Program-made: the position numbers and the translations under genes | The notes under the pieces: model-generated | What the model was told of the DNA's origin: nothing | Database searches by the model: none | The model's input: only the letters and a program-made list of their open reading frames with translations | DNA from: Bacillota bacterium | Lineage (GTDB): Bacteria; Bacillota; Clostridia; Peptostreptococcales; Anaerovoracaceae | Length of the DNA: 47,326 nt | Assembly: GCA_029101005.1 (NCBI GenBank) | Contig: JAQXQE010000018.1 | Coordinates: 1-47,326 of the forward strand | Direction: 5' to 3' | In this document: positions 28,797 through 42,350 of the stretch, one piece after another | Layout of the letters: each line of letters opens with the position of its first letter | How positions within the stretch are numbered: position 1 is the stretch's first letter

Positions 28797-29372
28797 ATGT
28801 GCAATAATGTGCAGAATGATCTGCTTCTGGTCATCGATATGCAGAATGTCTACCTTCCGGGCGGACACTGGGCTTGCGAGGGAATCGAGGCTGCGGCTGA
28901 GAGAATTTGCGAACTCATTGGCAAGCGTGGAAGTGAAGATGGAGGCACACTAAATGTGGCTTTGACACGTTTCGATGCAGCAGAGGATGCCACAGGAATG
29001 TGGCGAGACTACAATGAAGTCAATGCTTCTGTGAATGTGGACGTGGAAGCCTGTGAGATTATCGAGTGCTTTGCGGAACTCAGTGAGAAGTATCCGCTCT
29101 ACTCGAAGTCTGTGTATTCAGCTGCTGATATTCCAGAACTTATGGATGCTGTATCGTCGGCTGACAGAGTGCTGGTATCTGGAGTTGTGGCAGAATGCTG
29201 CGTACTGGCAACAGTGATGGCGCTGATAGATAAGGGCGTCAAGGTAGTGTACCTGACTGATGCTGTTGCGGGCGAGAGCGTCGCTACTGCTAAGGCAGTT
29301 GAGACCGTGCTTGCGGGATTAGACCCGCTTCATGTAGAACGAATGACCGTGGAAGAGTATTTAAACAGCTAA
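28797..29372 (+). CDS. Isochorismatase-family cysteine hydrolase
   Basis: A 191-residue cysteine hydrolase with the family triad D14 (LVIDMQN), K104 (LYSKSVYS) and C135 (GVVAECCVLAT). Members cleave C-N or ether bonds, as in nicotinamidase, N-carbamoylsarcosine amidase and ureidoacrylate hydrolase. The DxHxxxH metal site of true nicotinamidases is missing: the region after the core strand reads TRFDAAEDATGMWRD with no histidine. It is the first gene of the operon containing an ECF transporter and NiaR, so a pyridine or related amide is an attractive but unproven substrate. AAAGG lies upstream of the ATG. Confidence 0.85.
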   Translation: MCNNVQNDLLLVIDMQNVYLPGGHWACEGIEAAAERICELIGKRGSEDGGTLNVALTRFDAAEDATGMWRDYNEVNASVNVDVEACEIIECFAELSEKYPLYSKSVYSAADIPELMDAVSSADRVLVSGVVAECCVLATVMALIDKGVKVVYLTDAVAGESVATAKAVETVLAGLDPLHVERMTVEEYLNS

Positions 29373-29415
29373 CTTAAGATAAGAATTATTACATTAAGTA
29401 AGTAAGGAGAATGAA

Positions 29416-30018
29416 ATGGCTAAGATTTTCAAGACCAAACTCACAGCAGCTACAATCGTACTGATTCCGGCATGCATCGGAATCAACTATCTCGGTAAGC
29501 TTTTTGCTTCACTGCTTAAGCTCCCTCTGTGGCTTGATTCAATCGGAACATGCATCGGCGCTTGCCTCGGTGGACCTATCATCGGCGGACTCTGCGGTGC
29601 AGTTAACAACATCGTGTTTGGTCTGACAACAGGAGACAATATCACTCTGATCTATGCGCTGACAAGCCTTGGTATCGGTATCGCTGTAGGAGTAATGGCT
29701 AGACTCGGCTTCATGACAAGCTTCCCTAAGGCTATGCTCACAGCAGTAGTTGGCGGAACAGCAGCAGTAGTAATTTCAACACCACTCAACATCCTCTTCT
29801 GGGGAGGCACAACTGGTAACGTATGGGGAGATGCGCTCTTCGCATTCACACAGGCTAAGGGAATGTCAGTTGGAATGGGATCATTCCTCGACGAGCTAGT
29901 AGTAGACGTACCTGACAAGCTACTCACACTCATCATCGTATACCTCATCATCAAGGGTCTTCCTAAGAAGCTCACATCACTCTACGACGTTAACACAGAA
30001 GTGGAGAGACTCGATTAA
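29416..30018 (+). CDS. ECF transporter substrate-binding (S) component
   Basis: A 200-residue membrane protein with about six helices, typical of an S component that captures a vitamin-like solute. Near the N-terminus, WLDSIGTCIGACLGGPI and GLCGAVNNIVFGLT are small-residue-rich helices of the kind that dock to the T unit. It is followed directly by its own T and double ATPase genes, so it resembles a dedicated (group I, YkoE/Hts-like) transporter rather than one sharing a general module. The solute is unknown; the neighbouring NiaR suggests niacin, nicotinamide or a riboside. AAGGAG precedes the start. Confidence 0.8.
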   Translation: MAKIFKTKLTAATIVLIPACIGINYLGKLFASLLKLPLWLDSIGTCIGACLGGPIIGGLCGAVNNIVFGLTTGDNITLIYALTSLGIGIAVGVMARLGFMTSFPKAMLTAVVGGTAAVVISTPLNILFWGGTTGNVWGDALFAFTQAKGMSVGMGSFLDELVVDVPDKLLTLIIVYLIIKGLPKKLTSLYDVNTEVERLD

Positions 30019-30791
30019 TGAAAAGCATAAGTCTTTACAAAGACATGGGTACATGGCTCAATCTCATGCACCCTTATACAAAGCTGCTCTACATTGTGGC
30101 AGCAATATCAATTCCACTCATAGGTAGCAAGCTCTGGCTGTTCGGTGTGTTCATCGCAGCCAGTCTTGTAATTCTTGCGAGTGGCAAAGTCTTAAGACAC
30201 GCGGTTCCACTGCTCGCGTTCTCGGCTACACTTATCGTGGTGATCTTCCTCGTGCAGGGACTCTTCAACCACGCCAACGAGCAGGTGCTATTCGCAATCG
30301 GACCGATGACCTTCTACAAAGAAGGTGTGCTATTCGCAACTAAGCTAGGCCTGAACATCCTGAATATGCTGCTCTCCTTCGGCATCTTCGTGCTGACAAC
30401 CTCTCCAGAGGAGTTGGTTGATGAGATGGAGAAGAACGGATTCTCGGCCAAGTTCGGCTACGTAATCAATTCCGTATTCCAGATCCTTCCGCAGATGATG
30501 ATGACCAAGGATACGATTACTGACGCGCAGAGAAGCCGTGGCCTCGAGACCGAGGGCAGCCTGGGCGTGAGAATGAAAGCTTTTATCCCTCTGATCTCGC
30601 CTGTAGTAATGAGCTCTCTCGTCAACACAAGAGAGCGTGCCATCGCGCTTGAAGTCAGAGGTTTCGGCCGCAAGAACAAGAAGACATGGCTCGCTGACCG
30701 CCCTAAGCATAAGGGTGACAAAGCAATCGGCGCAGTCCTAGTCCTTCTTATCGTGCTTACAATTGCAGGGAGGGTATTAGGATGGCTTTGA
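30018..30791 (+). CDS. ecfT: ECF transporter T (EcfT) component
   Basis: A 257-residue membrane protein with four to six helices, the scaffold linking the S component with the ATPases. The two coupling-helix motifs are present as AQRSRGLE and the later ALEVRGFG, matching the Ala-Arg-Gly type signature. Its ATG overlaps the stop of the S-component gene (TAATG), and its own stop overlaps the start of the ATPase gene, showing tight coupling. Intact. Confidence 0.88.
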   Translation: MKSISLYKDMGTWLNLMHPYTKLLYIVAAISIPLIGSKLWLFGVFIAASLVILASGKVLRHAVPLLAFSATLIVVIFLVQGLFNHANEQVLFAIGPMTFYKEGVLFATKLGLNILNMLLSFGIFVLTTSPEELVDEMEKNGFSAKFGYVINSVFQILPQMMMTKDTITDAQRSRGLETEGSLGVRMKAFIPLISPVVMSSLVNTRERAIALEVRGFGRKNKKTWLADRPKHKGDKAIGAVLVLLIVLTIAGRVLGWL

Positions 30792-32413
30792 TAAATATTG
30801 AGAATCTCAAATACAGATACCCTGGTTACGAGCAGCTCGCCCTCGATGACATCTCTCTTACTATCGAGAGGGGTGAGTTCATCGGAATCTGTGGCCGTAA
30901 CGGCGCAGGTAAAAGCACGTTGTCTCAGGCGATAATCGGCCTGGTTCCGCAGTTCTACAAGGGTGCGTACGGTGGCCGCGTTGAAGTAGGCGGAATCCTC
31001 GCGGAGAAGAAGCCTGTGTACGAGATGTGCGAGAAAGTGGGACTGATATTCCAGAATCCTTTTACCCAGCTGACTGGTGCGAGGGATACTGTGTACGGAG
31101 AGATCGCGTTCGGACTGCAGAATCTCGCAATCGAAAGAGGTGAGATGCACAGAAGAATCGAGACTGTTATGAAGCAGCTCGATATCTGGGAGTACAAAGA
31201 TAGAAATCCGTTCGACCTCTCGGGAGGTCAGATGCAGAGGGTTGCAATTGCGAGTGTGCTTGTAATGCAGCCTGAGATTATTATTCTCGATGAGCCAACA
31301 TCGCAGCTTGATCCGCAGGGAAGCGAGGAGGTTTTCCGCGTGGTTGAGCAGCTCGCAGACAGTGGAATCACTGTTATTATGATCGAGCAGAAAGTCGAGA
31401 AGCTAGCGGCATACTGCGACCGCATCATACTGATGGACGGCGGCAAGATGGTAGCATTCGACACAGCCGAGAAGATCTACTCACGAGATGACCTCGAAGA
31501 GCTCGGCATCGAGCCACCAGTGTACACAAGACTCGCTAAGCAGTACGGAGTCAAGGACGAGAATGGCAATTATCCAGCGAAACTCGAGGATACAGTTCGA
31601 CTCTTCGCTGAGAAGAAGATTGAATTTGAGAAGCCAGTGGCTGAGGCTCCTGTGGCTGAGGCTGAAAAGGTCTTCAATATCGAGGATCTTGACTTCGCAT
31701 ATGTCGAGGGCGTGGATATTCTGAAGGATTTCTGCCTGAAGCTTGACCGTCGCTCGACAGCAATCATCGGACAGAATGGAGCCGGCAAGACTACTCTTGT
31801 AAGACTTCTCAAGGGTCTTCTTAAGCCTGCTAGCGGTTCAATATACTACGGCAGTGAGGACATCTCAGGCAAGACTGTCGCTATGCTGGCTGACAAGGTT
31901 GGATATGTATTCCAGAATCCAGATGATCAGATATTCAAGCACAATGTGCTCGAGGAGCTCATGTTCGGTCCTATGAATATAGGAATGAGCGAGGCTGATG
32001 CAAAGGCTGAGGCACTCAAGGCTCTCAAGCTTATGGGGCTCGAAGGCAAGGAGAATATGAATCCTTACGACCTCGATCTTCATGAGCGCAAGATGGTTGC
32101 AATCGCTTCAGTCCTTGCGATGGATACAGATGTGCTCATTCTAGATGAGCCGACTATTGCACAGGATTATTCTGGTCGAAAGATCATCGGCGATATGATT
32201 CGCAAGCTCACAGATGAGGGCAGATTAGTAATTGCAGTTCTTCACGATATGGATTTCGTTGAGGAATATTTCGATAGAGTTATTGTTATGGCGCACGGAG
32301 AACTTCTGTGCGAGGGCAGTGCTGCAGAGGTTTACTCTCAGGCTGAGCTTCTTGAGGAAGCTAAGCTTCAGAAACCGCACAGGATGCAGCTCTATGATCT
32401 GCTCAAGGCTTAA
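30782..32413 (+). CDS. ECF double ATPase (fused EcfA/A')
   Basis: A 543-residue fusion of two ABC ATPase domains, as in YkoD-type transporters. Domain 1 (about 1-265): Walker A CGRNGAGKST (38-47), signature LSGGQMQR, Walker B IIILDEP. Domain 2 (about 295-543): Walker A GQNGAGKTT near residue 330, Q-loop QNPDDQIF and Walker B VLILDEP, but the signature is replaced by LDLHERK, so only one composite ATP site is likely canonical. An Ala/Glu/Val-rich linker (VAEAPVAEAEK) joins them. It overlaps ecfT by 10 bases. It powers uptake by the S-T pair. Confidence 0.92.
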   Translation: MALINIENLKYRYPGYEQLALDDISLTIERGEFIGICGRNGAGKSTLSQAIIGLVPQFYKGAYGGRVEVGGILAEKKPVYEMCEKVGLIFQNPFTQLTGARDTVYGEIAFGLQNLAIERGEMHRRIETVMKQLDIWEYKDRNPFDLSGGQMQRVAIASVLVMQPEIIILDEPTSQLDPQGSEEVFRVVEQLADSGITVIMIEQKVEKLAAYCDRIILMDGGKMVAFDTAEKIYSRDDLEELGIEPPVYTRLAKQYGVKDENGNYPAKLEDTVRLFAEKKIEFEKPVAEAPVAEAEKVFNIEDLDFAYVEGVDILKDFCLKLDRRSTAIIGQNGAGKTTLVRLLKGLLKPASGSIYYGSEDISGKTVAMLADKVGYVFQNPDDQIFKHNVLEELMFGPMNIGMSEADAKAEALKALKLMGLEGKENMNPYDLDLHERKMVAIASVLAMDTDVLILDEPTIAQDYSGRKIIGDMIRKLTDEGRLVIAVLHDMDFVEEYFDRVIVMAHGELLCEGSAAEVYSQAELLEEAKLQKPHRMQLYDLLKA

Positions 32414-32431
32414 GAAAGGGGAGAAGGGACT

Positions 32432-32995
32432 ATGAAGACAATCGAAAGACGTCATGCAATTCTGGATATTCTCTCTAAGGCTGGCCCTGGTAACCCGGTA
32501 TCCGGAAGCAAGCTTGCTTCCGTTCTCAAAATCAGCAGACAGGTTGTTGTTCAGGATATCGCAATTCTCAGAGCCGAGCAGCACAATATCGTATCGACTA
32601 ATAGTGGATACTATCTCGAGGAGAAGAATAAGCCTACTCGAGTATTCAAGGTGAAGCATACTGATGAGCAGACTGAGGATGAGATGAATATCTTCGTAGA
32701 CAACGGAGCTGAGCTTGTTGATGTATTCGTATATCACAAGAGCTATGGTGTTGTCCGTGCGGATATGCACATCTCAAGCCGCAGAGGAGTTAAGGAGTTC
32801 CTTGCGTCCATCAAGAGCGGCAAGTCAACACTTCTCATGAACATCACTGGCGGATATCACTATCACACTGTTACAGCTCCTGATGTGAGCATTCTCGACA
32901 GCATCGAGGATCAGCTCTGGGAAGCTGGCTATCTCGCAGAGCTCAAGGAGTATGAGCCTGTAGATTTCCGAAAGGATAAGAGTGAGGATGAGTAA
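32432..32995 (+). CDS. niaR: NiaR niacin-responsive repressor
   Basis: A 187-residue repressor of NAD biosynthesis and niacin uptake genes. The N-terminal winged helix has PVSGSKLASVLKISRQVVVQ (22-41) and DIAILRAE; the C-terminal 3H domain carries the expected metal/nicotinate histidines H76 (KVKHTDE), H102 (VYHKSYG) and H143/H145 (GGYHYHTV). AAAGGGGAG lies upstream. Located in the operon right after the ECF ATPase, it probably represses this operon through the palindrome at 28750 when niacin is present. The C-terminus is a little longer and charged. The family assignment is strong; the target is inferred. Confidence 0.92.
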   Translation: MKTIERRHAILDILSKAGPGNPVSGSKLASVLKISRQVVVQDIAILRAEQHNIVSTNSGYYLEEKNKPTRVFKVKHTDEQTEDEMNIFVDNGAELVDVFVYHKSYGVVRADMHISSRRGVKEFLASIKSGKSTLLMNITGGYHYHTVTAPDVSILDSIEDQLWEAGYLAELKEYEPVDFRKDKSEDE

Positions 32996-33917
32996 TACTA
33001 AGATAAGAATTGCCGGAACTGGAGTTGCGACTCTGGACCTGTATCTTAACAGGGGGAGAATGTACCCGGGCGGCAATGAATACAATGTTGTATGCCACGC
33101 AATCAGAAATGGCGCCGAGGCTGGGTTCCTCGGCGTATTTGGCAATGACAGGGCTGGCGAGATTCTCGAGGAGACGCTAGTAGATCTCGGTGTAGATATC
33201 TCAATGTCGCGCCACGAGATTGGATCAAGTGGCTACAGCCTTGTTACAATTAAGGACGATGGCGACCGTGTCTTCCTCGACTGGAACCGCAAAGGCGTAA
33301 CAGACCTATATCCTTTCGAGTTCACTGAAGAAGAGATTGAGTACATCAGAAGTTACGATGTTCTAAGTGCGGGCAAACTTGCAGATGTCAGCCTCGAGAA
33401 GCTGGAACTTCTCGCTTCTTCTGGTATCAGCATCTGCTATGACTTCCACGCATCCTTCGATGATGAGGAGATTAATGCCGTATCACCGCATATTGATTAC
33501 GGATTCTTCTCATGCAGTCATCTCAATGATGAGGAGATATATGAGCTGCTTGAGAAGGCAGTTGAAGCTGGCTGCAAACTGGCCGTGGGTACTCGTGGCT
33601 GCGAGCCTGTTGTGGTATATGACGGCTCTGAGTTCCATGTTCGCGAGACTCTTCGCGTTGAGCCTACTGATACTCTCGGTGCAGGTGATTCATTCATAGC
33701 GGCATTCCTGACAAGCTATCTTACTTCAATCAAAGCAGGTAAGACTGTAGGAGATGCAGTAGATAAGGCCCTGATTGATGCAACTGAGTACTCAGCTGGT
33801 GTTGTTATCATTGAGGGAAGCCTCGGAATGGGGTATGATATAGAGAGCGACGAATTGGCGGACCTCGTCAATGTCGAAAGCTGCAAGCTGTCTGAACTGA
33901 TGGCGGAGCAGGAATAA
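32988..33917 (+). CDS. PfkB-family kinase, FrlD-like
   Basis: A 309-residue ribokinase-fold kinase. The N-terminus has MYPGGNEYNVVCHA (the GGN motif for the sugar), FLGVFGNDRAGE, and the C-terminal catalytic anion hole DTLGAGDSF. Overall it is closest in my reading to fructoselysine 6-kinase (FrlD). The ATG at 32988 lies inside the last codons of niaR (overlap of 8 bases), so it is translationally coupled to a niacin regulator; a frame-extending GTG at 32982 is less likely. No deglycase (FrlB) is nearby. It could phosphorylate a sugar or a riboside such as nicotinamide riboside; this is not settled. Confidence 0.85.
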   Translation: MSNTKIRIAGTGVATLDLYLNRGRMYPGGNEYNVVCHAIRNGAEAGFLGVFGNDRAGEILEETLVDLGVDISMSRHEIGSSGYSLVTIKDDGDRVFLDWNRKGVTDLYPFEFTEEEIEYIRSYDVLSAGKLADVSLEKLELLASSGISICYDFHASFDDEEINAVSPHIDYGFFSCSHLNDEEIYELLEKAVEAGCKLAVGTRGCEPVVVYDGSEFHVRETLRVEPTDTLGAGDSFIAAFLTSYLTSIKAGKTVGDAVDKALIDATEYSAGVVIIEGSLGMGYDIESDELADLVNVESCKLSELMAEQE

Positions 33918-33945
33918 AGATAACATATAATTCAAGGAGATAGAT

Positions 33946-34626
33946 ATGGAACAGTACAAGCAGGAGTTTATTGAATTCATGGTAGAGTCGGACGTGCTCA
34001 AGTTCGGAGATTTCACACTGAAGAGCGGACGTAAGTCACCTTTCTTCATGAATGCGGGCGCATATGTTACTGGCTCACAGCTTAAGAGACTCGGTGAGTA
34101 CTATGCGAAGGCAATCTACAGCAAGTATGGCACAGACTTCGATGTGCTCTTCGGACCAGCTTACAAGGGAATTCCTCTGAGCGTAGTAACAGCAATCGCA
34201 TTCAGCGAGCTCTACGGCAAGGAAATCAGATACTGCTCAGATCGTAAGGAAGCAAAGGATCACGGCGCTGATAAAGGCGGTTTCATCGGAAGCCCGCTTC
34301 AGGATGGCGACAGGGTTGTTATGATCGAGGACGTTACAACTTCTGGTAAGTCAATGGAGGAGACAGTACCAAAGGTAAGAGGCGCTGCTGATGTTACAAT
34401 CGTTGGCCTCATGGTATCACTCGACAGAATGGAAGTAGGCAAGGGCGGAGTTAAGTGTGCACTCGATGAGGTGCACGACCTCTACGGCTTCGACACTAAT
34501 GCCATCGTAACAATGGCTGAGGTAACAGAGCATCTCTACAACAGAGAGTGCAACGGCAGAGTCGTAATCGACGATGAACTCAAGGCAGCAATTGACTTGT
34601 ACTATGAGCAGTACGGCGCTAAGTAG
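33946..34626 (+). CDS. pyrE: Orotate phosphoribosyltransferase
   Basis: A 226-residue PyrE that joins orotate and PRPP to OMP. The PRPP loop MIEDVTTSGKSMEE (about 125-138) is intact, and FTLKSGRKSPFF near the N-terminus and PAYKGIPL match the family. AAGGAG precedes ATG 33946. It sits 28 bases after the PfkB kinase and may be cotranscribed with it, yet pyrF, pyrD and pyrB are not adjacent, so its association with this operon is unusual. It could also serve as a phosphoribosyl donor step in the niacin-linked context, but the orotate signature is clear. Confidence 0.93.
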   Translation: MEQYKQEFIEFMVESDVLKFGDFTLKSGRKSPFFMNAGAYVTGSQLKRLGEYYAKAIYSKYGTDFDVLFGPAYKGIPLSVVTAIAFSELYGKEIRYCSDRKEAKDHGADKGGFIGSPLQDGDRVVMIEDVTTSGKSMEETVPKVRGAADVTIVGLMVSLDRMEVGKGGVKCALDEVHDLYGFDTNAIVTMAEVTEHLYNRECNGRVVIDDELKAAIDLYYEQYGAK

Positions 34627-34658: not shown

Positions 34659-35447
34659 ATGACAGCTTTAGAGAGACAGAAGAGAATAGAGGAGATACTG
34701 CTTGAGCGCAAGCACATATCGGTAGCTGAACTTTCGAACATCTTCGGGGTGAGTTTCGAGACAGTTCGAAGAGACCTGAAGGCTATGGAGAAGATCGGAC
34801 TGATTGAGAAGTCATATGGCGAGGCGCGCATCAAGGAGAAGGTTAGCCATGAGCTCGGTTTCGAGGAACTCTCGCATATCATGGTTGACGCGAAGAAGAA
34901 GATCTCCGAGGCGGCAATGCGCTACGTTGAGCCTGGCGATTGTCTGTATCTGGACTATGCCACAACTTGTCTTATGATGGTTGACTATCTCGGCGAAGTG
35001 CCAGTGACAGTTATGACCAGCTCCTTCGAAGTCCTCAAGGGTCTGACTTCCAAGCCTAAGGTGCACACATACTGCACAGGCGGCAGCTGGGATGAGAAGA
35101 ACAGAGCCTTCGTTGGGCAGGCCACACTTAAGTGCCTGGACGATTTCCACCTGGACAAGGCATTCATCAGCTGCAGAGCACTGAGCATGGAGAAAGGCCT
35201 CTCTGACAGAACGGAGATCGAGGCGGCACTCAGACGTAAGGTTATCGAGGCATCGAACGAGGTGTATCTTATGGTAGACTACTCCAAGTTCGACAAGGAG
35301 GCCTTCGTTCGTACGGCAGACTTCTCTAAGCTAAAAGGTATTATCACTGATGCGGAACTCGGCGAAGAGTGGCAGGAGTTTCTCGAGGAGAGAGGCATCA
35401 CGTATATCAACTGCTACAGACTCCCGGATGAGACGGAACTGTTCTAG
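34659..35447 (+). CDS. DeoR-family transcriptional regulator
   Basis: A 262-residue DeoR regulator. The N-terminal HTH is ISVAELSNIFGVSFETVRRDLKAM in two parts (about 20-43), and the C-terminal domain is a sugar-phosphate sensor fold with LYLDYATTC, CTGGSW and the closing VYLMVDYSKF and GIITD. Such regulators repress sugar catabolic operons until a phosphosugar binds. It ends at a strong terminator and is followed by the symporter/aminotransferase/kinase/aldolase operon, which it probably controls. It lies 32 bases after pyrE and may be cotranscribed. Confidence 0.93.
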   Translation: MTALERQKRIEEILLERKHISVAELSNIFGVSFETVRRDLKAMEKIGLIEKSYGEARIKEKVSHELGFEELSHIMVDAKKKISEAAMRYVEPGDCLYLDYATTCLMMVDYLGEVPVTVMTSSFEVLKGLTSKPKVHTYCTGGSWDEKNRAFVGQATLKCLDDFHLDKAFISCRALSMEKGLSDRTEIEAALRRKVIEASNEVYLMVDYSKFDKEAFVRTADFSKLKGIITDAELGEEWQEFLEERGITYINCYRLPDETELF

Positions 35448-35456
35448 GAATACAGA

Positions 35457-35487
35457 CAGCAGATTGCGTATGCAATCTGCTGTTTTT
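35457..35487 (+). terminator. Terminator after the DeoR gene
   Basis: An 11-bp perfect stem CAGCAGATTGC / GCAATCTGCTG with loop GTAT and five T. Confidence 0.92.
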
Positions 35488-35554
35488 ATATGCACTCACA
35501 TCGCAAAAACCACATACAAATCGATACAATGTGGCTTTAACGATGACATAACAA

Positions 35555-35611
35555 CAAAACCTCAAACAAATTGTATATTCAGCACAAAAAACAAACAAGC
35601 AAAACCTCAAA
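35555..35611 (+). repeat. Direct repeats, candidate DeoR operators
   Basis: CAAAACCTCAAA occurs at 35555-35566 and again at 35600-35611, 45 bases start to start; the second copy ends 5 bases before the -35. The helical spacing and position fit operators of the DeoR-family regulator. The rest of the 247-base gap is A/C-rich and non-coding. Confidence 0.5.
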
Positions 35612-35616
35612 TCCAC

Positions 35617-35645
35617 TTGACCACTTGAAGAACACCACATATAAT
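35617..35645 (+). promoter_or_regulatory. Promoter of the symporter-aldolase operon
   Basis: TTGACC (35617-35622), a 17-base spacer and TATAAT (35640-35645), giving a start near 35652 and a short leader of about 43 bases. Confidence 0.8.
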
Positions 35646-35694
35646 CGAAATATGGAATCAAATAACTTGGTTTATTCAAAAGGGAGAGATCAAA

Positions 35695-37089
35695 ATGAAA
35701 ACTAAGCAATTTACCAAAATGCGCCAGCTCGGTTACGAGGCCGGCATCACAGTTGAATCAGTAGTATACAACGCGTTCTATATCTATTTCCTGATTTTCC
35801 TGAACACAGTTGTAGGACTTAACCCTGTTCTCTGTGGAACTATCTCAATGCTGTCAGTATGCGTTGACGCTATCACTGACCCACTGCTCGGATACATCTG
35901 CGACAAGCCAAATGTAGATGTTAAGAAGCTCATGCTCTGGGGAGGACTTCTCACAGGTATCCTCTACGGATGCTGCTACATAGTAGTGCCAGGAAGCGTT
36001 GCATTCAAGGCTGCATACTACATCATCGTTTCATCACTCATGTGGTGTGCATACACAACATTCTGCATTCCTTACTACTCATGCTGCGCATCACTCACAG
36101 ACGACTATGATGAGCAGACAAAGATCAGAGGAATCTCATCAACAATCAACGCATTCGTTATCTACGTTGGTTGTGTATTCCCAGTTCTCTTCATCACACT
36201 GTTCGCAACTGCTGGTGTAGAGATTACAAAGGCATGGACACTGGCTGCATTCTGCATCGGTGTAATTTCTATCGTATTCGGTCTCATCAACTACTTCTCA
36301 ATCAAGGACGTAGAGTTCATCGAGAAGGCTGTAGTTGAGGAGCAGGAGGGACTGTTTAAGACATACAAAGATGTTATCAAGCTCAAGCCTATGAGATTCT
36401 TCATTCCTTGGGTATTCTTCTACCTCTTCGGTTCAGCTATGGTATCAGCTAACACTAACTACCTGATCATCTATGCTATCGGAGCTGATCCAGATTCAAT
36501 CACATACACAGCAATGATGACACTGCTCTGCTTCCTGATTGGATCACCAATCCTTACAGTTATCGGACACAAGGTTGACAGAAAGCCTGCTGTAATGACT
36601 GCATTCGGTATCACAGCTATCGGTGTAATCATCTGCAGAATTATCGGAGTAACAACACTTCCAATGATGTTCGTTCTCACACTGCTCAACGGTATCGCTT
36701 GCGTAGGTTTCTGGTGCTTCTTCTACGACTTCGCATACGATATGATCGAGCTCGATGAGTACAAGAACAGAAAGAGCAGAGCTGGAGCTATCACATCATT
36801 CCCACAGCTCGTTCAGAAGTTCGGTAACGCTATTGGTCTTCAGGCTGTAGGTATCATCCTCGCAATGGTAGGATTCGATGCAGCAGCTGAGGTACAGTCA
36901 GCAAGCGCTATCTCAGGTATCCAGAACATCTCAACAATCTTCCTCGCAATCTGCATCGGAATCTCACTGTACTGCCTCTGGAGATACCCAATCAACAAGA
37001 AGGTATACCAGAAGCTGCAGGCTGCTAACGAGAGAAGAAGAAACGGAGAAGAGGACTACTGCGATCCAGAAATCGACGCAATTCTCTAA
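35695..37089 (+). CDS. GPH-family sugar:cation symporter (MFS)
   Basis: A 464-residue 12-helix transporter of the glycoside-pentoside-hexuronide:cation type. The signature DAITDPLLGYICDKP (TM2-loop) is typical of the family, and the second half shows FYDFAYDMIELDEYKN and the RKSRAGAITSFPQLVQKFG region. It should import a sugar, sugar-like or polyol substrate with Na+ or H+. AAAGGGAG precedes ATG 35695. It is the first gene of an operon with an aminotransferase, an FGGY kinase and a class II aldolase, so it probably supplies their substrate. Confidence 0.9.
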   Translation: MKTKQFTKMRQLGYEAGITVESVVYNAFYIYFLIFLNTVVGLNPVLCGTISMLSVCVDAITDPLLGYICDKPNVDVKKLMLWGGLLTGILYGCCYIVVPGSVAFKAAYYIIVSSLMWCAYTTFCIPYYSCCASLTDDYDEQTKIRGISSTINAFVIYVGCVFPVLFITLFATAGVEITKAWTLAAFCIGVISIVFGLINYFSIKDVEFIEKAVVEEQEGLFKTYKDVIKLKPMRFFIPWVFFYLFGSAMVSANTNYLIIYAIGADPDSITYTAMMTLLCFLIGSPILTVIGHKVDRKPAVMTAFGITAIGVIICRIIGVTTLPMMFVLTLLNGIACVGFWCFFYDFAYDMIELDEYKNRKSRAGAITSFPQLVQKFGNAIGLQAVGIILAMVGFDAAAEVQSASAISGIQNISTIFLAICIGISLYCLWRYPINKKVYQKLQAANERRRNGEEDYCDPEIDAIL

Positions 37090-37152
37090 TAATTGCTGTA
37101 TAATATTGAAACAAGAAATAAGTCTGTAATAGATTAAGGAGATTAAGTAGAC

Positions 37153-38586
37153 ATGTCAAAGCTTATCAATGAGTACGATTACGCCGCTATACATGCACAG
37201 GCTGGCGAGCTTATGAAGCATCGTAAGCATCTCAAGAGAAGTGCAGTAGAGCGTTACAACAAGTGGTTCGATGAGAATTGTGCTAAGTCAAAGGTTGAGA
37301 CTGCACTCGCTGCAGAGACAATCCCTGGCGGAATTCAGCACAACCTCGCTAACAATCATCCATTCCCACTTGCAATCGACAGAACTGAGGGACCATACCT
37401 CGTGGATATCGATGGCAACAGATACATCGACTTCCTTTGCAGTGGAGGTCCAACAATCCTTGGTAACAACTACCCAGCTGTTACAGAGGCAGTAGTTAAG
37501 CAGATCACTGAGAAGACACATCTCCACGGACTTTACAGCCCATATGAGAGAGAACTCTCAGAGCTTGTAAGAAAGTACATGCCATCAATCGAGATGTTCC
37601 GTTGCCTTGGTTCAGGTACTGAGGCTGACATCATCGCTGCTCGTCTTGCTCGTGCATACACAGGCAAGAAGCACCTCGTCAGAATCTCTGGTGGATATCA
37701 CGGCTGGTCAGATCAGCTCGTATACAACGACGGTGCAACAACAGCAGATATGAAGAACGGAATCCCAGCAGAGTGCTTCCACAATACACATGCCATCCCA
37801 GCAAATGATCTCGATGCTCTCGAAGCAGAGATCGCCAAATGGGAAGACAAGGGCGGTGTAGCAGCCCTCTTTGTAGAGGCAGTTGGACAGGACAGCGGAA
37901 TCGTTCCTCTCACTAAGGAATTCCACAAGGAAGCTGAGAGAATCTGCAGAGAGCACGATATGCTGCTCGTATACGATGAGGTTGTTACTGGTTTCCGTCT
38001 CGGAATGGGCGGTGCTCAGGCAGTATTCGGAACAAAGCCTGACATCACAGTATTCGGTAAAATCATCGGTGGTGGCTTCGGTTCTTCCGGCGGTATCGGC
38101 GGACGCAAGGACATCATGAGCCTGCTCGCTGCCGGAGTAAGCGCTGAGTCAGAGAACAAGGTTAAGGTCGGTGGTACACTGAGCGGTAACCCACTCACAG
38201 CTCTTGCTGGTATCACAGTAATCAAGGAGCTCGAGAAGGAGAACGTTCACGAGAAGCTCGAGAAGGCGTCAAAGTACTTCATGAACGGCATCGCAGAGCT
38301 GACAGACAAGTACGACGTACCTGCACTTGTTTTCCATCACCAGTCAATTCTCCACATCGACACACACGGACTGGCTCACATCCCATACTTCTTCAAGGGA
38401 GATGATCCTGAGTACCAGACACAGCTTGTCGATGCATACACAAATTACATTGAGTTCTCAATGGCACTTGCAGCAGAGGGTCTGATCATCGCTAACGGCG
38501 GTAAGACATACCTGCCATACAACGGAATCGGAATCCTCGACGATGCTCTTGCTTGCTATGAGAGAGTATTCAAGGAGTTCGAATAA
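37153..38586 (+). CDS. Class III PLP aminotransferase (GSA aminomutase-like)
   Basis: A 477-residue fold-type I PLP enzyme. The cofactor Asp is in VYDEVVTGFRLG, the Schiff-base Lys is about residue 303 in VFGKIIGGG, and SGTEADIIAARLARA and SGGYHGWSDQ match glutamate-1-semialdehyde aminomutase and related transaminases. An N-terminal extension of about 45 residues precedes the fold (typical GSA enzymes are about 430). It is not hemL by context: it lies in a sugar operon, between a symporter and a sugar kinase. Its stop overlaps the kinase start by one base. It may transfer or move an amino group on an amino-sugar or amino-polyol. The substrate is unknown. Confidence 0.88.
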   Translation: MSKLINEYDYAAIHAQAGELMKHRKHLKRSAVERYNKWFDENCAKSKVETALAAETIPGGIQHNLANNHPFPLAIDRTEGPYLVDIDGNRYIDFLCSGGPTILGNNYPAVTEAVVKQITEKTHLHGLYSPYERELSELVRKYMPSIEMFRCLGSGTEADIIAARLARAYTGKKHLVRISGGYHGWSDQLVYNDGATTADMKNGIPAECFHNTHAIPANDLDALEAEIAKWEDKGGVAALFVEAVGQDSGIVPLTKEFHKEAERICREHDMLLVYDEVVTGFRLGMGGAQAVFGTKPDITVFGKIIGGGFGSSGGIGGRKDIMSLLAAGVSAESENKVKVGGTLSGNPLTALAGITVIKELEKENVHEKLEKASKYFMNGIAELTDKYDVPALVFHHQSILHIDTHGLAHIPYFFKGDDPEYQTQLVDAYTNYIEFSMALAAEGLIIANGGKTYLPYNGIGILDDALACYERVFKEFE

Positions 38587-40064
38587 TGGACGTAATCGCA
38601 GCTTATGACTTTGGTACCAGCGGAGTTAAAGCCGCACTCGTTACCAGAGATGCAAAGATTATGGCGGTTAAGGAGAAGGCTTATCCTCTCCTTAACCCTA
38701 AGCCGCTCTTCGTAGAGCAGAGTCCGACAGACTACTGGGACGCTGTATGCGAAGTAACTCACGGCGTACTCGCTGAGTCGGGTATCGCGCCTGAGGATGT
38801 AAAAGGCCTTTCTTTTAGCGTGCAGGCTATCAACCTCATCCCTGTGGACGAGGAAGGTAATGTTCTCTACAACGCTATCAGCTGGCTCGACGGCCGTGCT
38901 GAGAAGGAAGCCGAGATCATCAATGAAGCGGTTGGAGTGGACATCGTAAGAAGTCAGGACTTCCAGCCTAGAATCCTCTGGCTCAAGGAGAACGAGCCTG
39001 AGGTATACGCAAAGACAAAGTACTTCCTCGACTGCGACAGCTTCCTGCAGTTCAAGGCAACTGGAATCATGGCTGTCGATGATGACCACGATGGAATCGT
39101 AGTTAACCACCCAGCTATCGAGGAATACATGGACGCATCACTCATGCTCGTTGACCGCACAAAACTCGCTCCACAGGTTCAGGCCTGCAAGGAGTTCGGC
39201 AAGCTCGACGAGAAGGGTGCATCAGACCTGGGACTCGTTCCTGGAACACCTGTCTTCGGCGGCATGATTGACGTTCCTGCTGCAGCTGCTGGCTGCGGAT
39301 GCATCAAGGACGGAGATGCTCATCTCTACCTCGGAAGCTCCGGTTGGCTCTCAGCAATGGTAGATCAGCCATATGAGGCAGCTGAGGGTTCATACCTTCT
39401 TAACAGCATCACACCTGGTCTCATGATCTACGGTGGATGCACTAACGCTTGCTGCCTGATGCAGAACTGGGCAATCGACCACTTCTACAAGAAGGAGCAC
39501 GACGAGCTCGGCGGCGGAATCTTCGACTTCCTCGCTGAGGAGATGAAGGATGTCCCACCAGGATGCGACGGCCTCTTTGCAACACCATGGCTCTTCGGAG
39601 AGCAGTTCCCAATCTGCGATTCATTCGTAAGAGGAATCTTCTTCAATATGCAGGAGGGACACACAAGAGCACACTTCATGAGTGCTGTTCTTGAGAGTAT
39701 CTGCTTCAGTATGAAGGGACAGATTGAGTGTTACAAGAAGGACACAGGCAAGACCATCACTTCTGTAGGCGTTAACGGCGGCGGATCCCTTTCTGACTAT
39801 TGGATGCAGATGATGGCTAACGTTCTCCAGATGCCAGTCTACATTCCAGAGAACACAAGACATTCAGGTGCTATCGGTGCTGCTGTAGCTGCTGCTATCG
39901 GCCTCGACTGGTGCACAATCGAGAATGTCAACGAGTTCGTCAAGAAGGAGAGAGAGTTCGAGCCAGACTCTTCGCTTGCTGATCTCTACGAGAAGAAATA
40001 CAACAACTGGATGAAGCTCTATGATTCAATCAAAGACCTGTCCAGAGAGTTAAATATGGAGTAA
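38586..40064 (+). CDS. FGGY-family sugar kinase (xylulokinase-like)
   Basis: A 492-residue two-domain FGGY kinase. The N-terminal phosphate-1 motif is AAYDFGTSGVKAAL, the region SFSVQAINLIPVD and WLDGRAEKEA follow, the C-terminal catalytic Asp region is GTPVFGGMIDVPAAAAG, and GVNGGGSLSDYWMQMMANVL and TRHSGAIGAAVAAAIG are the FGGY signature. Such kinases phosphorylate ketoses or polyols at C1 or C5. It starts in the last base of the aminotransferase stop (TAATG), showing coupled translation. It probably phosphorylates the product of the upstream enzyme for cleavage by the aldolase downstream. Confidence 0.9.
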   Translation: MDVIAAYDFGTSGVKAALVTRDAKIMAVKEKAYPLLNPKPLFVEQSPTDYWDAVCEVTHGVLAESGIAPEDVKGLSFSVQAINLIPVDEEGNVLYNAISWLDGRAEKEAEIINEAVGVDIVRSQDFQPRILWLKENEPEVYAKTKYFLDCDSFLQFKATGIMAVDDDHDGIVVNHPAIEEYMDASLMLVDRTKLAPQVQACKEFGKLDEKGASDLGLVPGTPVFGGMIDVPAAAAGCGCIKDGDAHLYLGSSGWLSAMVDQPYEAAEGSYLLNSITPGLMIYGGCTNACCLMQNWAIDHFYKKEHDELGGGIFDFLAEEMKDVPPGCDGLFATPWLFGEQFPICDSFVRGIFFNMQEGHTRAHFMSAVLESICFSMKGQIECYKKDTGKTITSVGVNGGGSLSDYWMQMMANVLQMPVYIPENTRHSGAIGAAVAAAIGLDWCTIENVNEFVKKEREFEPDSSLADLYEKKYNNWMKLYDSIKDLSRELNME

Positions 40065-40069
40065 TTGTT

Positions 40070-40741
40070 ATGGCAAACGTTGAAGCAATTAAGCAGAAGA
40101 TTGTTGATATTGTTCAGAAAGAGTACCGCCTAGGCATGGTCAACATGTTCGAGGGCAATGTCTCCGCAAAAGTTGGCGACCGAGTGTTCATCACTCCGTC
40201 CCAGGTTGCCAAGGACGACATGACCAAAGACATGATTATTGAGATGGATCTCGAGGGCAACATCGTTGACTGCCCAGAAGGCCTCAAGCCTTCTTCAGAG
40301 AGCAAGATGCACCTCGAGGTATACCGCCTCAGACCAGATGTCAAGGCTGTAGTTCACAACCACAGCACTTACGCTACTGCTTTCGCAATGAACAATATGC
40401 CAATCGACACTAAGGCACTGACAGAGGTCAACCTAACCCTCGGAGTAATCCCAGTATGCAAGTACGGCACTCCAGGCACTGAGCTGATCTATGCAGACCT
40501 CAAGAATGTAATCGGCAACCTCTATGCAGTACTTCTTGCCAACCACGGACTGCTGGCATTCGGTCCAACACTTGACATCGCATTCTCATATGCTGAGGGT
40601 GTCGAGAAGGTTGCGCAGACAATCACAATAGCAGGCCGCATTGGCGCTCCATCCAACATCCCAGATGCTGAGATTGAAGCACTCCGTCAGTTCGGCAGCG
40701 CAGCAAGAGACGCAGCAATCGCAAAATCCCTTGCTGACTAG
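40070..40741 (+). CDS. Class II (zinc) aldolase, fuculose-phosphate type
   Basis: A 223-residue class II aldolase of the fuculose-1-phosphate/ribulose-5-phosphate epimerase superfamily. The zinc ligands are H96 and H98 in VVHNHST and H159 in LANHGLL; the phosphate-binding residues are GNVSAK and SSES with the catalytic E77. Members split a ketose-1-phosphate into dihydroxyacetone phosphate and an aldehyde. It starts 5 bases after the kinase stop and is the last gene of the operon, before the terminator at 40768. The exact substrate is unknown. Confidence 0.92.
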   Translation: MANVEAIKQKIVDIVQKEYRLGMVNMFEGNVSAKVGDRVFITPSQVAKDDMTKDMIIEMDLEGNIVDCPEGLKPSSESKMHLEVYRLRPDVKAVVHNHSTYATAFAMNNMPIDTKALTEVNLTLGVIPVCKYGTPGTELIYADLKNVIGNLYAVLLANHGLLAFGPTLDIAFSYAEGVEKVAQTITIAGRIGAPSNIPDAEIEALRQFGSAARDAAIAKSLAD

Positions 40742-40767
40742 GATAGATATTGATTATATGGTATAAG

Positions 40768-40795
40768 AAAGAACTCCCGCACGCGGGAGTTCTTT
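40768..40795 (+). terminator. Terminator of the symporter-aldolase operon
   Basis: AAAGAACTCCCG / CGGGAGTTCTTT, a 12-bp perfect stem with loop CACG, giving a palindromic hairpin with T and A tails. Confidence 0.9.
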
Positions 40796-40823
40796 CGTTA
40801 TGGGGAGATCCTTGGGTGTTGAA

Positions 40824-40976: not shown

Positions 40977-42350
40977 ATGGCGCAGGACGCTAAGAGTAAT
41001 TCCAAATCGATGGTAAGGGATTTGACGAAGGGCAATGTTGCGAGACAGCTCTTTGTTTTTGCGGCGCCGCTTTTTCTGTCGAATGCGCTGCAGGCGATAT
41101 ACAATATAGTGGATATGATCATTGTTGGCCAGGTAATGGGCGGTAAGGGAATGGCAGCGGTTGCGATAAGCGGCAATATTCAGCATTTGCTGTGTTTTGT
41201 GGCGATGGGATTCGCGGGAGCGGGTCAGATTATCATTGCACAGAAGCTGGGTGCGAAGGATATGGAAGGAGTGAGGAAGACAATAGGAACACTCTTCACT
41301 ATGCTTCTGATTGCTGCGGTGATGATGACAGTAATTTGTCTAGTCTTTAGAATTGAGATATTGAAGTTGGTTAATACGCCAGAAGAGGCTTTTGGCTATG
41401 CGATGGATTACACGATAATCGGAATCTCAGGTCTGATATTCGCATATGGATATAATGTAGTGAGCGCAATCATGAGAGGTCTCGGCGATAGCAAGAGACC
41501 GTTCATCTTCGTAGCAATTGCGTCAGTGCTCAATATAGTGCTGGATGTGCTGTTTGTGGTTATCTTCGGATGGGAAGTAAGAGGTGCAGCACTGGCGACC
41601 ATCATCGGTCAGGCAGTCAGCTTCCTCTGGGCACTCTGGTATCTATACAAGAACAGAGAGAACTTCGTGTTCGACTTCAAACTCAGGAGCTTTGCGATTG
41701 ATAAGTCGGCAGCCGCAGGCCTGCTAAAACTTGGTATCCCGATGGCTATTCAGTCGGCAGCTATCAACGTGTCGATGACTGTAGTATCGGCGTGGGTCAA
41801 TTCCTTCGGATACATCGCGTCGGCGATGGCTGGAATGATCTCCAAGCTGAATACACTTGCGGGAATCCTGTCAGCATCAATCAGCACAGCTGCAGGAGCA
41901 ATGATTGGACAGAATATCGGAGCGCAGAAGTTCGACAGAGTTCCAGTAATTCTGAAGAATGCGTTCGGAGTATCGATTATCATCTCGATGATAATCTGCG
42001 CAGTCGTATATATATTCCCAAATCAGACGTTCGCGATGTTCACAAGCGATAAGCTCGTGCTGGCGAATGCGTCAATAATTATCGGACCATTCATACTCAA
42101 CTGCGTGGGAGCATCGACGAGAACATTCGGATTTGCGATGATTAATGGATCTGGTAATTCCAGACTTAATCTGCTGATAGCAATACTTGATGGAATGGTA
42201 GCAAGACTGAGCCTTGCGTATATCATCGGATTCATTATAGTAAATGGGCCACAGGGATTCTGGTACGGAGATGCCATTGCGGGATTCGTGCCAATGCTGA
42301 TAGGAGGAGTGTACTTCCTGAGCGGCAAGTGGAGAAAGATACGCGTATAA
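40977..42350 (+). CDS. MATE-family multidrug/metabolite exporter
   Basis: A 457-residue 12-helix MATE (NorM/DinF-type) antiporter exporting drugs or metabolites against Na+ or H+. The first half shows LFLSNALQAIYNIVDMIIVG and GKGMAAVAISGN; the second repeat has the matching GILSASISTAAGAMIGQNIGA. The Lys/Ser-rich N-terminus is cytoplasmic. AAGGAGGG lies upstream of ATG 40977, with a weaker GGACG nearer. It is monocistronic, with its own promoter under a candidate operator, and closed by a terminator shared with the ABC-F gene. The substrate is unknown. Confidence 0.9.
   Translation: MAQDAKSNSKSMVRDLTKGNVARQLFVFAAPLFLSNALQAIYNIVDMIIVGQVMGGKGMAAVAISGNIQHLLCFVAMGFAGAGQIIIAQKLGAKDMEGVRKTIGTLFTMLLIAAVMMTVICLVFRIEILKLVNTPEEAFGYAMDYTIIGISGLIFAYGYNVVSAIMRGLGDSKRPFIFVAIASVLNIVLDVLFVVIFGWEVRGAALATIIGQAVSFLWALWYLYKNRENFVFDFKLRSFAIDKSAAAGLLKLGIPMAIQSAAINVSMTVVSAWVNSFGYIASAMAGMISKLNTLAGILSASISTAAGAMIGQNIGAQKFDRVPVILKNAFGVSIIISMIICAVVYIFPNQTFAMFTSDKLVLANASIIIGPFILNCVGASTRTFGFAMINGSGNSRLNLLIAILDGMVARLSLAYIIGFIIVNGPQGFWYGDAIAGFVPMLIGGVYFLSGKWRKIRV

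Follow-up and report, generated by a model that had tools for sequence, protein, structure and literature searches.

Layout of the locus

The window analyzed here is the whole of contig JAQXQE010000018.1 (47,326 nucleotides; assembly GCA_029101005.1) from a Bacillota bacterium of the family Anaerovoracaceae. Its feature of interest is a four-gene operon encoding a GPH-family symporter, a class III pyridoxal phosphate (PLP) enzyme, an FGGY kinase, and a class II aldolase, preceded by the gene for a DeoR-type regulator. An original prediction, made from the sequence alone, had described this set as a catabolic operon, and its gene list, order, strand, and families were borne out by open reading frame (ORF) and Pfam scans. 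The features are as follows, in window coordinates.

34659..35447, + strand: DeoR/AgaR-like repressor, likely regulator of the operon (Pfam HTH_DeoR and DeoRC)
35450..35489, + strand: terminator hairpin at the DeoR/operon boundary (inverted repeat; folding z = −5.62)
35546..35611, + strand: two direct repeats (35546-35566 and 35591-35611), a possible but weak operator
35617..35645, + strand: sigma-70 type promoter, TTGACC-17-TATAAT (11/12 consensus matches)
35695..37089, + strand: GPH-family (MFS_2) symporter, presumed importer (PF13347, 169.4 bits)
37153..38586, + strand: class III PLP enzyme of branch AT_A, proposed amine-to-ketone transaminase (PF00202; PLP lysine Lys303)
38586..40064, + strand: FGGY carbohydrate kinase, proposed ketose kinase (FGGY_N and FGGY_C; best model XylB, below cut-off)
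40070..40741, + strand: class II aldolase of the fuculose-phosphate type (PF00596)
40762..40802, + strand: terminator hairpin 3′ of the aldolase gene (folding z = −5.85)

The proteins of the operon and its regulator all scored above the Pfam gathering thresholds (DeoRC, 160.5 bits; MFS_2, 169.4; Aminotran_3, 189.2; FGGY_N, 122.5; FGGY_C, 104.4; Aldolase_II, 157.2). The symporter met the MFS_2 cut-off by a wide margin (169 versus 27 bits) but scored below that of TIGR00792 (155 versus 231). As had been claimed, the kinase start overlaps the stop of the aminotransferase (AT) gene by one base (TAATG, 38584-38588), and 5 bases (40065-40069) separate the kinase from the aldolase; the spacing between the symporter and AT genes is 63 bases. 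The single promoter and the flanking terminators of the original prediction were likewise found. The promoter stretch recurs in a relative, L052 (Candidatus Crickella, Anaerovoracaceae), where direct repeats were looked for and none was found. The two hairpins fold at −22.7 and −23.7 kcal/mol, respectively, and none of 200 shuffles equaled either of them; neither was picked up by a simple consensus terminator scan. The position of the DeoR gene just upstream also held, with one refinement: because the first hairpin intervenes and a pyrE-type gene lies only 32 bases before DeoR, the regulator is probably transcribed separately from the operon. In L034 and L052, too, DeoR adjoins this operon, and its best NCBIfam match is AgaR (152 bits, below the cut-off of 260).

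The PLP enzyme belongs to a family separate from HemL

By its Aminotran_3 domain and its PLP lysine, conserved in 60/60 family sequences, the window AT is a class III enzyme. HemL is the family that it matches best (302 bits to PRK00062), but the enzyme reached only 283.2 bits against the hemL equivalog, whose cut-off is 527.3, and it fell below every NCBIfam cut-off among the matches listed (25 of 69 families). No match over the hemL cut-off was detected in the whole window genome.

To place the enzyme, we used a tree of 77 sequences, from which the fragments L055, L123, and L124 and sequences duplicated between loci were left out. The window enzyme fell in a branch of 15 sequences (AT_A; support 100/95) with a sister branch of 45 (AT_BC; 100/98), its nearest named relative being L052. 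The two branches form a clade of 60 sequences (100/100) on a stem of 2.13, with the nine hemL sequences outside it; this tree carries a long-branch warning, and the branch of the hemL sequences themselves is weak (93/26). Residues at the active site also differ. The HemL motif GGVNSPVRA reads GG[IV]QHNLA in the AT family, with one exception among the sequences that reach it (L087, GAVQHNLS). At the column of the SPVR arginine, which we take to bind the substrate carboxylate in HemL, arginine was present in 9/9 hemL sequences and alanine in all 15 AT_A and 98% of AT_BC sequences. The AGSG motif, presumably part of the HemL gating loop, was present in 6/9 hemL and 0/60 AT family sequences. Thus, in keeping with the original prediction, the enzyme does not group with hemL and has lost the substrate arginine. 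Judged by its sequence, the window AT is not HemL. That it is a misannotated HemL beside an unrelated ketose operon would account for its top family match but is very improbable: this idea was ruled out by the score (283 bits against 527), the distinct clade, the residues, and the genomic linkage described below.

The kinship with HemL bears differently on the possibility that the enzyme is an aminomutase. HemL converts a 2-amino-aldehyde to a 1-amino-ketone, and an enzyme performing a reaction of the same type could produce a 1-amino-ketose from a 2-amino-aldose (for example, glucosamine or galactosamine); phosphorylation and cleavage would then give triose phosphate and an amino-triose. HemL as the best-scoring family, the AgaR-like DeoR, and the nagA gene beside one AT_A/FGGY pair (L084) favor this route; the missing SPVR arginine and AGSG motif argue against it, as does the lack in the window operon of a gene that would handle an amino-triose. 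On balance, we regard the aminomutase as rather doubtful.

The AT family is linked to FGGY kinases and carbon-processing enzymes

We mapped the neighborhoods of the AT loci in the stretches of DNA that were fetched. Related loci are not independent, ATs within one cluster share one kinase, and phmmer references were drawn from the same clusters, so that divergent neighbors may escape detection. Of 68 AT loci from whole-genome searches, 57 had a gene for a kinase, an aldolase, or a RuBisCO-like protein no more than 1.5 kb away on either side (FGGY, 35; aldolase, 32; RuBisCO-like, 10), as opposed to 0/8 hemL genes over the cut-off and 0/8 other class III genes. The expectation that the genes would be linked in related genomes was therefore upheld (57/68 versus 0/16).

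At a distance of 6 kb, counts were made for the 41 of 60 AT genes with at least 5.5 kb of sequence on both sides; the other 19 lie too close to an end of their stretch, and the window itself was not counted. An FGGY kinase was present near 40/41 (14/14 AT_A relatives and 26/27 AT_BC) and an Aldolase_II or RuBisCO-like gene near 7/14 AT_A and 22/27 AT_BC. Transporters and regulators differed between the branches: GPH genes were near 11/14 AT_A and 5/27 AT_BC, DeoR near 3/14 and 0/27, TetR near 9/14 and 22/27, and aldehyde dehydrogenase (ALDH) near 0/14 and 3/27, respectively. Since AT_A and AT_B often share one cluster (L035-L037 and L119-L123), their counts are not independent.

The AT family extends well beyond the window; the operon, described alone in the original prediction, is one branch of it. 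With the window genome included in each count, the family was detected in 54/197 genomes of the bacterial family (E ≤ 1e-80), 23/247 genomes of the order and 13/391 sampled genomes of the class (1e-100), and 4/299 genomes of the phylum (1e-85); AT_A was detected in 15/349 genomes (1e-125). A scan of genome contigs with a single protein returned seven loci, of which five were AT_A. In the window genome, three genes exceed the FGGY cut-off: two adjoin its two ATs, and the third is GlpK. Its second set (L047:4818-10553, contig C26) comprises an FGGY kinase, a 277-amino-acid aldolase, an AT_B, a TetR regulator, and an Ldh_2 oxidoreductase. The same genome has a third class II aldolase gene on contig C11 (L186:4467-5690), whose single frame contains two Aldolase_II matches; the surrounding 16 kb showed no AT.

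The kinase and aldolase retain their catalytic residues

For residue counts, aldolase sequences of <90 bits or <180 amino acids and kinase sequences of <150 bits or <400 amino acids were dropped. The window kinase has both FGGY domains, the ATP-loop motif DxGT, and the catalytic aspartate, and in its family D8 and G10 were conserved in 48/48, T11 in 47/48, and D229 in 49/49 of the sequences that reach them. It scored 278.8 bits against the XylB equivalog (cut-off 380.25). The aldolase, which has the Aldolase_II domain, belongs to the class II (FucA) type by its catalytic Glu, HxH motif, further His, and phosphate-site residues: Gly29-Asn30, Ser44, Glu77, His96, and His98 were conserved in 34/34 sequences and His159 in the 33/33 that reach it. 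The roles of these residues in both enzymes we take to be those known from FGGY and FucA structures. The best-scoring solved relatives of the aldolase are fuculose-phosphate aldolases, and its scores lie below the cut-offs of the FucA equivalogs (110 versus 264 and 94 versus 400 bits).

These families also bear on the order of the steps. Were the kinase to act first, the PLP enzyme could be a phospho-lyase or deaminase of a phosphorylated amino alcohol, and the aldolase would belong to a side branch. Ethanolamine-phosphate and phosphohydroxylysine lyases have the class III fold, and ALDH genes lie near some clusters. Those lyase systems, however, are known to use kinases of the APH type; the best models and solved relatives of the AT are of the HemL type, and carbon-processing enzymes are often linked to it. 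We therefore consider a phospho-lyase or deaminase of this kind quite improbable.

Different enzymes fill the aldolase position

In several related clusters, the position of the aldolase is taken by other genes. One AT_A cluster (L038) has LsrF over its cut-off (399 versus 297 bits), a ribose-type ABC permease, and DeoR; another (L084) includes a nagA that passes its cut-off (319 versus 226) and, downstream, genes for a zinc alcohol dehydrogenase and for a class II aldolase of the FBP type (PF01116). In the genus of the window, four clusters (L119-L122) have the gene order symporter-AT_A-TetR-AT_B-FGGY. A class II aldolase was found elsewhere in all four of these genomes, two of which have a further tandem aldolase. 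In three fetched regions (L183-L185), an aldolase of the ALD_B type adjoins a glyceraldehyde-3-phosphate dehydrogenase (GAPDH) gene. With 413 bits against a cut-off of 367, the L183 GAPDH scores as type I; it shares 82% and 91% identity with its counterparts in L184 and L185, respectively. In L096, a GAPDH of this type (404 bits) and a phosphofructokinase precede AT_B-aldolase-FGGY. The regions, all from the genus of the window, are as follows.

L183:6519-8816, L184:6001-8194, L185:6261-8474: aldolase and GAPDH
L096:5871-12529: aldolase, GAPDH, and phosphofructokinase

The variety of enzymes in one position, together with GAPDH next to the aldolase, suggests that a phosphorylated keto compound is cleaved to triose phosphate. 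The sister branch has either an Aldolase_II or a RuBisCO-like protein at this position. In AT_C clusters (L046:6183-12407, and also L039, L040, L043, L044, and L051), an MtnW-like RuBisCO-like protein and a HAD phosphatase replace the aldolase, and these six are the loci with a HAD phosphatase of the same kind among 10 mapped RuBisCO-like loci. Such variants may process the intermediate otherwise than by a simple retro-aldol reaction.

Proposed pathway and substrate

We propose that the operon breaks down an amino-polyol or amino sugar, a reading to which we assign a probability of roughly 55%. The GPH symporter would import the compound, and the class III PLP enzyme would transaminate its amine-bearing carbon to a ketone, yielding a ketose-like product; in fucose, rhamnose, and xylitol breakdown, the corresponding step is carried out by an isomerase or dehydrogenase. 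The FGGY kinase would phosphorylate this product, which the class II aldolase would split into dihydroxyacetone phosphate (or another triose phosphate) and an aldehyde. DeoR is the probable repressor, sensing a phosphorylated intermediate of the pathway. A compound headed by CH2OH-CHNH2-CHOH-CHOH- (2-amino-2-deoxyalditol type) would suit all three enzymes as a substrate with no need of an extra isomerase.

The broad scheme of amine to ketone, phosphorylation, and cleavage is likely, and it fits because in other clusters the aldolase is replaced by other carbon-processing enzymes; the individual reactions, their order and direction, the regulation, and the substrate we infer. Of the pathway in the original prediction, which is partly supported, this outline held up on the same grounds; the substrate, the choice between transaminase and aminomutase, and the hydroxyl that is phosphorylated are conjectural. 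For the window operon, we favor a 2-amino-polyol or amino sugar. Signs of the substrate in its branch are mostly polar, because of the AgaR-like DeoR, the GPH genes near 11/14 AT_A, nagA in L084, the ribose-type ABC permease in L038, and the residues Asn67 and Ala391, which are fixed in AT_A where AT_BC has Phe. Weakening this polar picture, DeoR is near just 3/14 AT_A, and three further differences run in the opposite direction (Phe376, Leu369, and Met437 in AT_A versus Leu, Ala, and Ala in AT_BC).

Several observations weigh against the proposed breakdown of an amino-polyol or amino sugar. Neither a class II aldolase nor a RuBisCO-like gene lies within 6 kb of 7/14 AT_A and 5/27 AT_BC genes (L100, L103, and L120-L122), and for L054, L100, and L103 no substitute for the aldolase was identified. 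The RuBisCO-like protein that fills the position elsewhere (10 sequences) would not obviously catalyze a retro-aldol cleavage. The frequencies of the regulators near AT_A, low for DeoR and 9/14 for TetR, are also unfavorable. Neither DeoR nor any of the four operon proteins reached an NCBIfam cut-off among the matches listed (25 of 69 families for the AT, as above, and 25 of 31 for the aldolase), and enzyme specificity is therefore unconstrained. To our knowledge, no natural amino-alditol is a common gut nutrient. Finally, trimethylamine-methyltransferase-like (MttB) genes with an in-frame TAG (GGG*[AV]DSK, occurring as GGG*ADSK and GGG*VDSK) accompany the module in G895 and G896, genomes from a single genus, one of them recorded as Emergencia sp. 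One lies between AT_A and FGGY (L124:1008-2525; the same DNA is in L056) and one upstream of the symporter (L118:4761-6356). MttB presumably carries pyrrolysine at about this position, and the TAG likely encodes it here. These genes hint that the substrate of those strains is N-methylated, which the scheme leaves unexplained. MttB was searched for in eight AT_A genomes and was absent from five, the window genome included.

The sister branch and sphingoid bases

The same chemistry could serve a different substrate, with phytosphingosine-like 2-amino-1,3,4-triols converted to the 2-ketone and the 1-phosphate and then cleaved to dihydroxyacetone phosphate and a fatty aldehyde, which ALDH would oxidize. 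This route would likely apply at most to the sister branch AT_BC, possibly also to the window, and we consider it unlikely. Its most suggestive locus is on a Burkholderia ambifaria plasmid, where FGGY-aldolase-AT-(hypothetical)-SDR-ALDH faces an Mpo1-like gene (L164; PF06127, 83 amino acids), described in Pfam as 2-hydroxy-palmitic acid dioxygenase Mpo1-like. That gene, however, occurs in one record alone, and its end overlaps an IS5 transposase. The ALDH genes near 3/27 AT_BC and the regulators of this branch (TetR near 22, DeoR near 0) are in line with the route, although ALDH is a minority neighbor. So, perhaps, is the Phe in AT_BC at the positions of Asn67 and Ala391, if these residues line the pocket; against it, the differences at 376, 369, and 437 run opposite.

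Class III transaminases that act on hydrolyzed fumonisin B1, a sphingoid analogue, have been described and remove its C2 amine (PMC9858248). Pseudomonas sphingosine metabolism uses other proteins, with a product left unidentified there (PMC11893366), and the reference list of a further paper has titles on Mpo1 and phytosphingosine degradation (PMC10864336). Among the literature matches listed for the sphingoid route, no paper with this gene set appeared in the titles, abstract beginnings, and passages covered. Neutral ceramidase, whose co-occurrence was considered as support and rejected, is present in just 2/197 genomes of the bacterial family: G075, an AT-bearing genome, and G192, which lies outside the 54 genomes with an AT. 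The hints of sphingoid bases as substrates of the sister branch are weak; this branch may act on lipid-like substrates.

Two observations on this branch concern its distribution and gene content. The AT of the Burkholderia plasmid cluster (L164:8675-16706, FGGY-aldolase-AT-SDR-ALDH adjoining the Mpo1-like gene) is 59.5% identical to that on a Butyrivibrio fibrisolvens plasmid (L165), which suggests that the AT may have been transferred across phyla. A small GtrA-type membrane protein is encoded in AT_B clusters (L045, L096, L097, L099, L101, and L165). Genes for GH1 proteins near L054, L055, and L094 had no consistent link to the module.

Both substrate classes could be reconciled in a general module with exchangeable importers and carbon-cleaving enzymes. 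Here a HemL-related transaminase would turn 2-amino-1,3,4-polyol heads into ketoses, and amino-polyols (window branch) and phytosphingosine-type bases (sister branch) would enter glycolysis by way of ketose-1-phosphates. We put this forward tentatively, as possible but doubtful. If true, the sister branch would be common to gut Clostridia and a plant-associated Burkholderia plasmid, the Clostridia working without oxygen.

Neighboring genes

Upstream of DeoR, the run of genes at 28797-34626, read by eye, encodes an isochorismatase-like hydrolase, ECF-type transporter proteins, and a winged-helix regulator, followed by a PfkB kinase (best match fructoselysine 6-kinase, below the cut-off) and the pyrE-type gene, which is above its cut-off; the run is perhaps a nucleoside or sugar salvage operon. 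The FrlD-like PfkB kinase and PyrE were considered as members of the pathway and rejected: the L034 and L052 stretches have no PyrE match, and the PfkB match of L052 lies 4.5 kb away from DeoR. A MATE exporter gene lies downstream of the operon (40977-42350). MATE genes scoring 192 to 197 bits to it are upstream in L119-L122, four clusters of the same genus.

Significance

Taken together, these results indicate that the module is real, conserved, uncharacterized, and catabolic. No characterized pathway matching this gene set was found in the open-access literature, to which the search was confined, and the original prediction, which knew of none, stands in this respect. Our claim of novelty rests on this search and on the AT lying under the named-family cut-offs among the matches listed. 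If the proposal is correct, (i) genes annotated in gut anaerobes as class III aminotransferase or HemL, FGGY kinase, and class II aldolase would make up one unrecognized catabolic module for an amine-bearing nutrient; (ii) the HemL-like gene in a genome with no match reaching the hemL cut-off would be explained; (iii) the pathway would follow a new logic, with a transaminase replacing the isomerase; and (iv) the module would be a candidate route for the anaerobic breakdown of amino-polyols, amino sugars, or sphingoid bases.

Comparison with known systems

The AT would share with FumI-type fumonisin transaminases the class III PLP chemistry by which the C2 amine of a polyhydroxylated chain is converted to a 2-ketone (PMC9858248). 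The Protein Data Bank entry of that type of enzyme, 6HBS, is absent among the AT matches listed (60 of 68). With HemL, the enzyme shares the class III fold and the PLP lysine (60/60 sequences), HemL being its best-scoring family; it differs by its separate clade, the loss of the SPVR arginine, and a score far below the cut-off.

Two known systems resemble relatives of the operon. Autoinducer-2 (AI-2; Lsr) catabolism uses the FGGY kinase LsrK, LsrF, and the Lsr ABC transporter, and the L038 AT_A/FGGY pair likewise has close by an LsrF that exceeds its cut-off, as well as a ribose-type ABC permease. The L038 kinase, however, matches XylB better than the AI-2 kinase models (252 versus 123 bits), and the cluster contains an AT besides; LsrF and ABC genes are both absent from the window operon. 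Methionine salvage employs MtnB, MtnW, and MtnX, and the sister clusters share with it the class II aldolase family, an MtnW-like RuBisCO-like protein, and a HAD phosphatase. They differ by having an AT and an FGGY kinase, and the RuBisCO-like protein of L046, the sole one scored, is below the MtnW cut-offs (340 versus 409 and 300 versus 514 bits).

The closest parallel is with pathways of the L-fucose, L-rhamnose, and D-arabinose type, in which an isomerase, an FGGY kinase, and a class II aldolase act by way of a ketose-1-phosphate. As in these systems, an FGGY kinase and a FucA-type aldolase with its site residues retained are encoded side by side in one operon, although the window kinase and aldolase lie below the NCBIfam cut-offs among the matches listed. 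ORF and Pfam scans detected no aldose-ketose isomerase in the window operon; in its place, the operon encodes a class III PLP enzyme.

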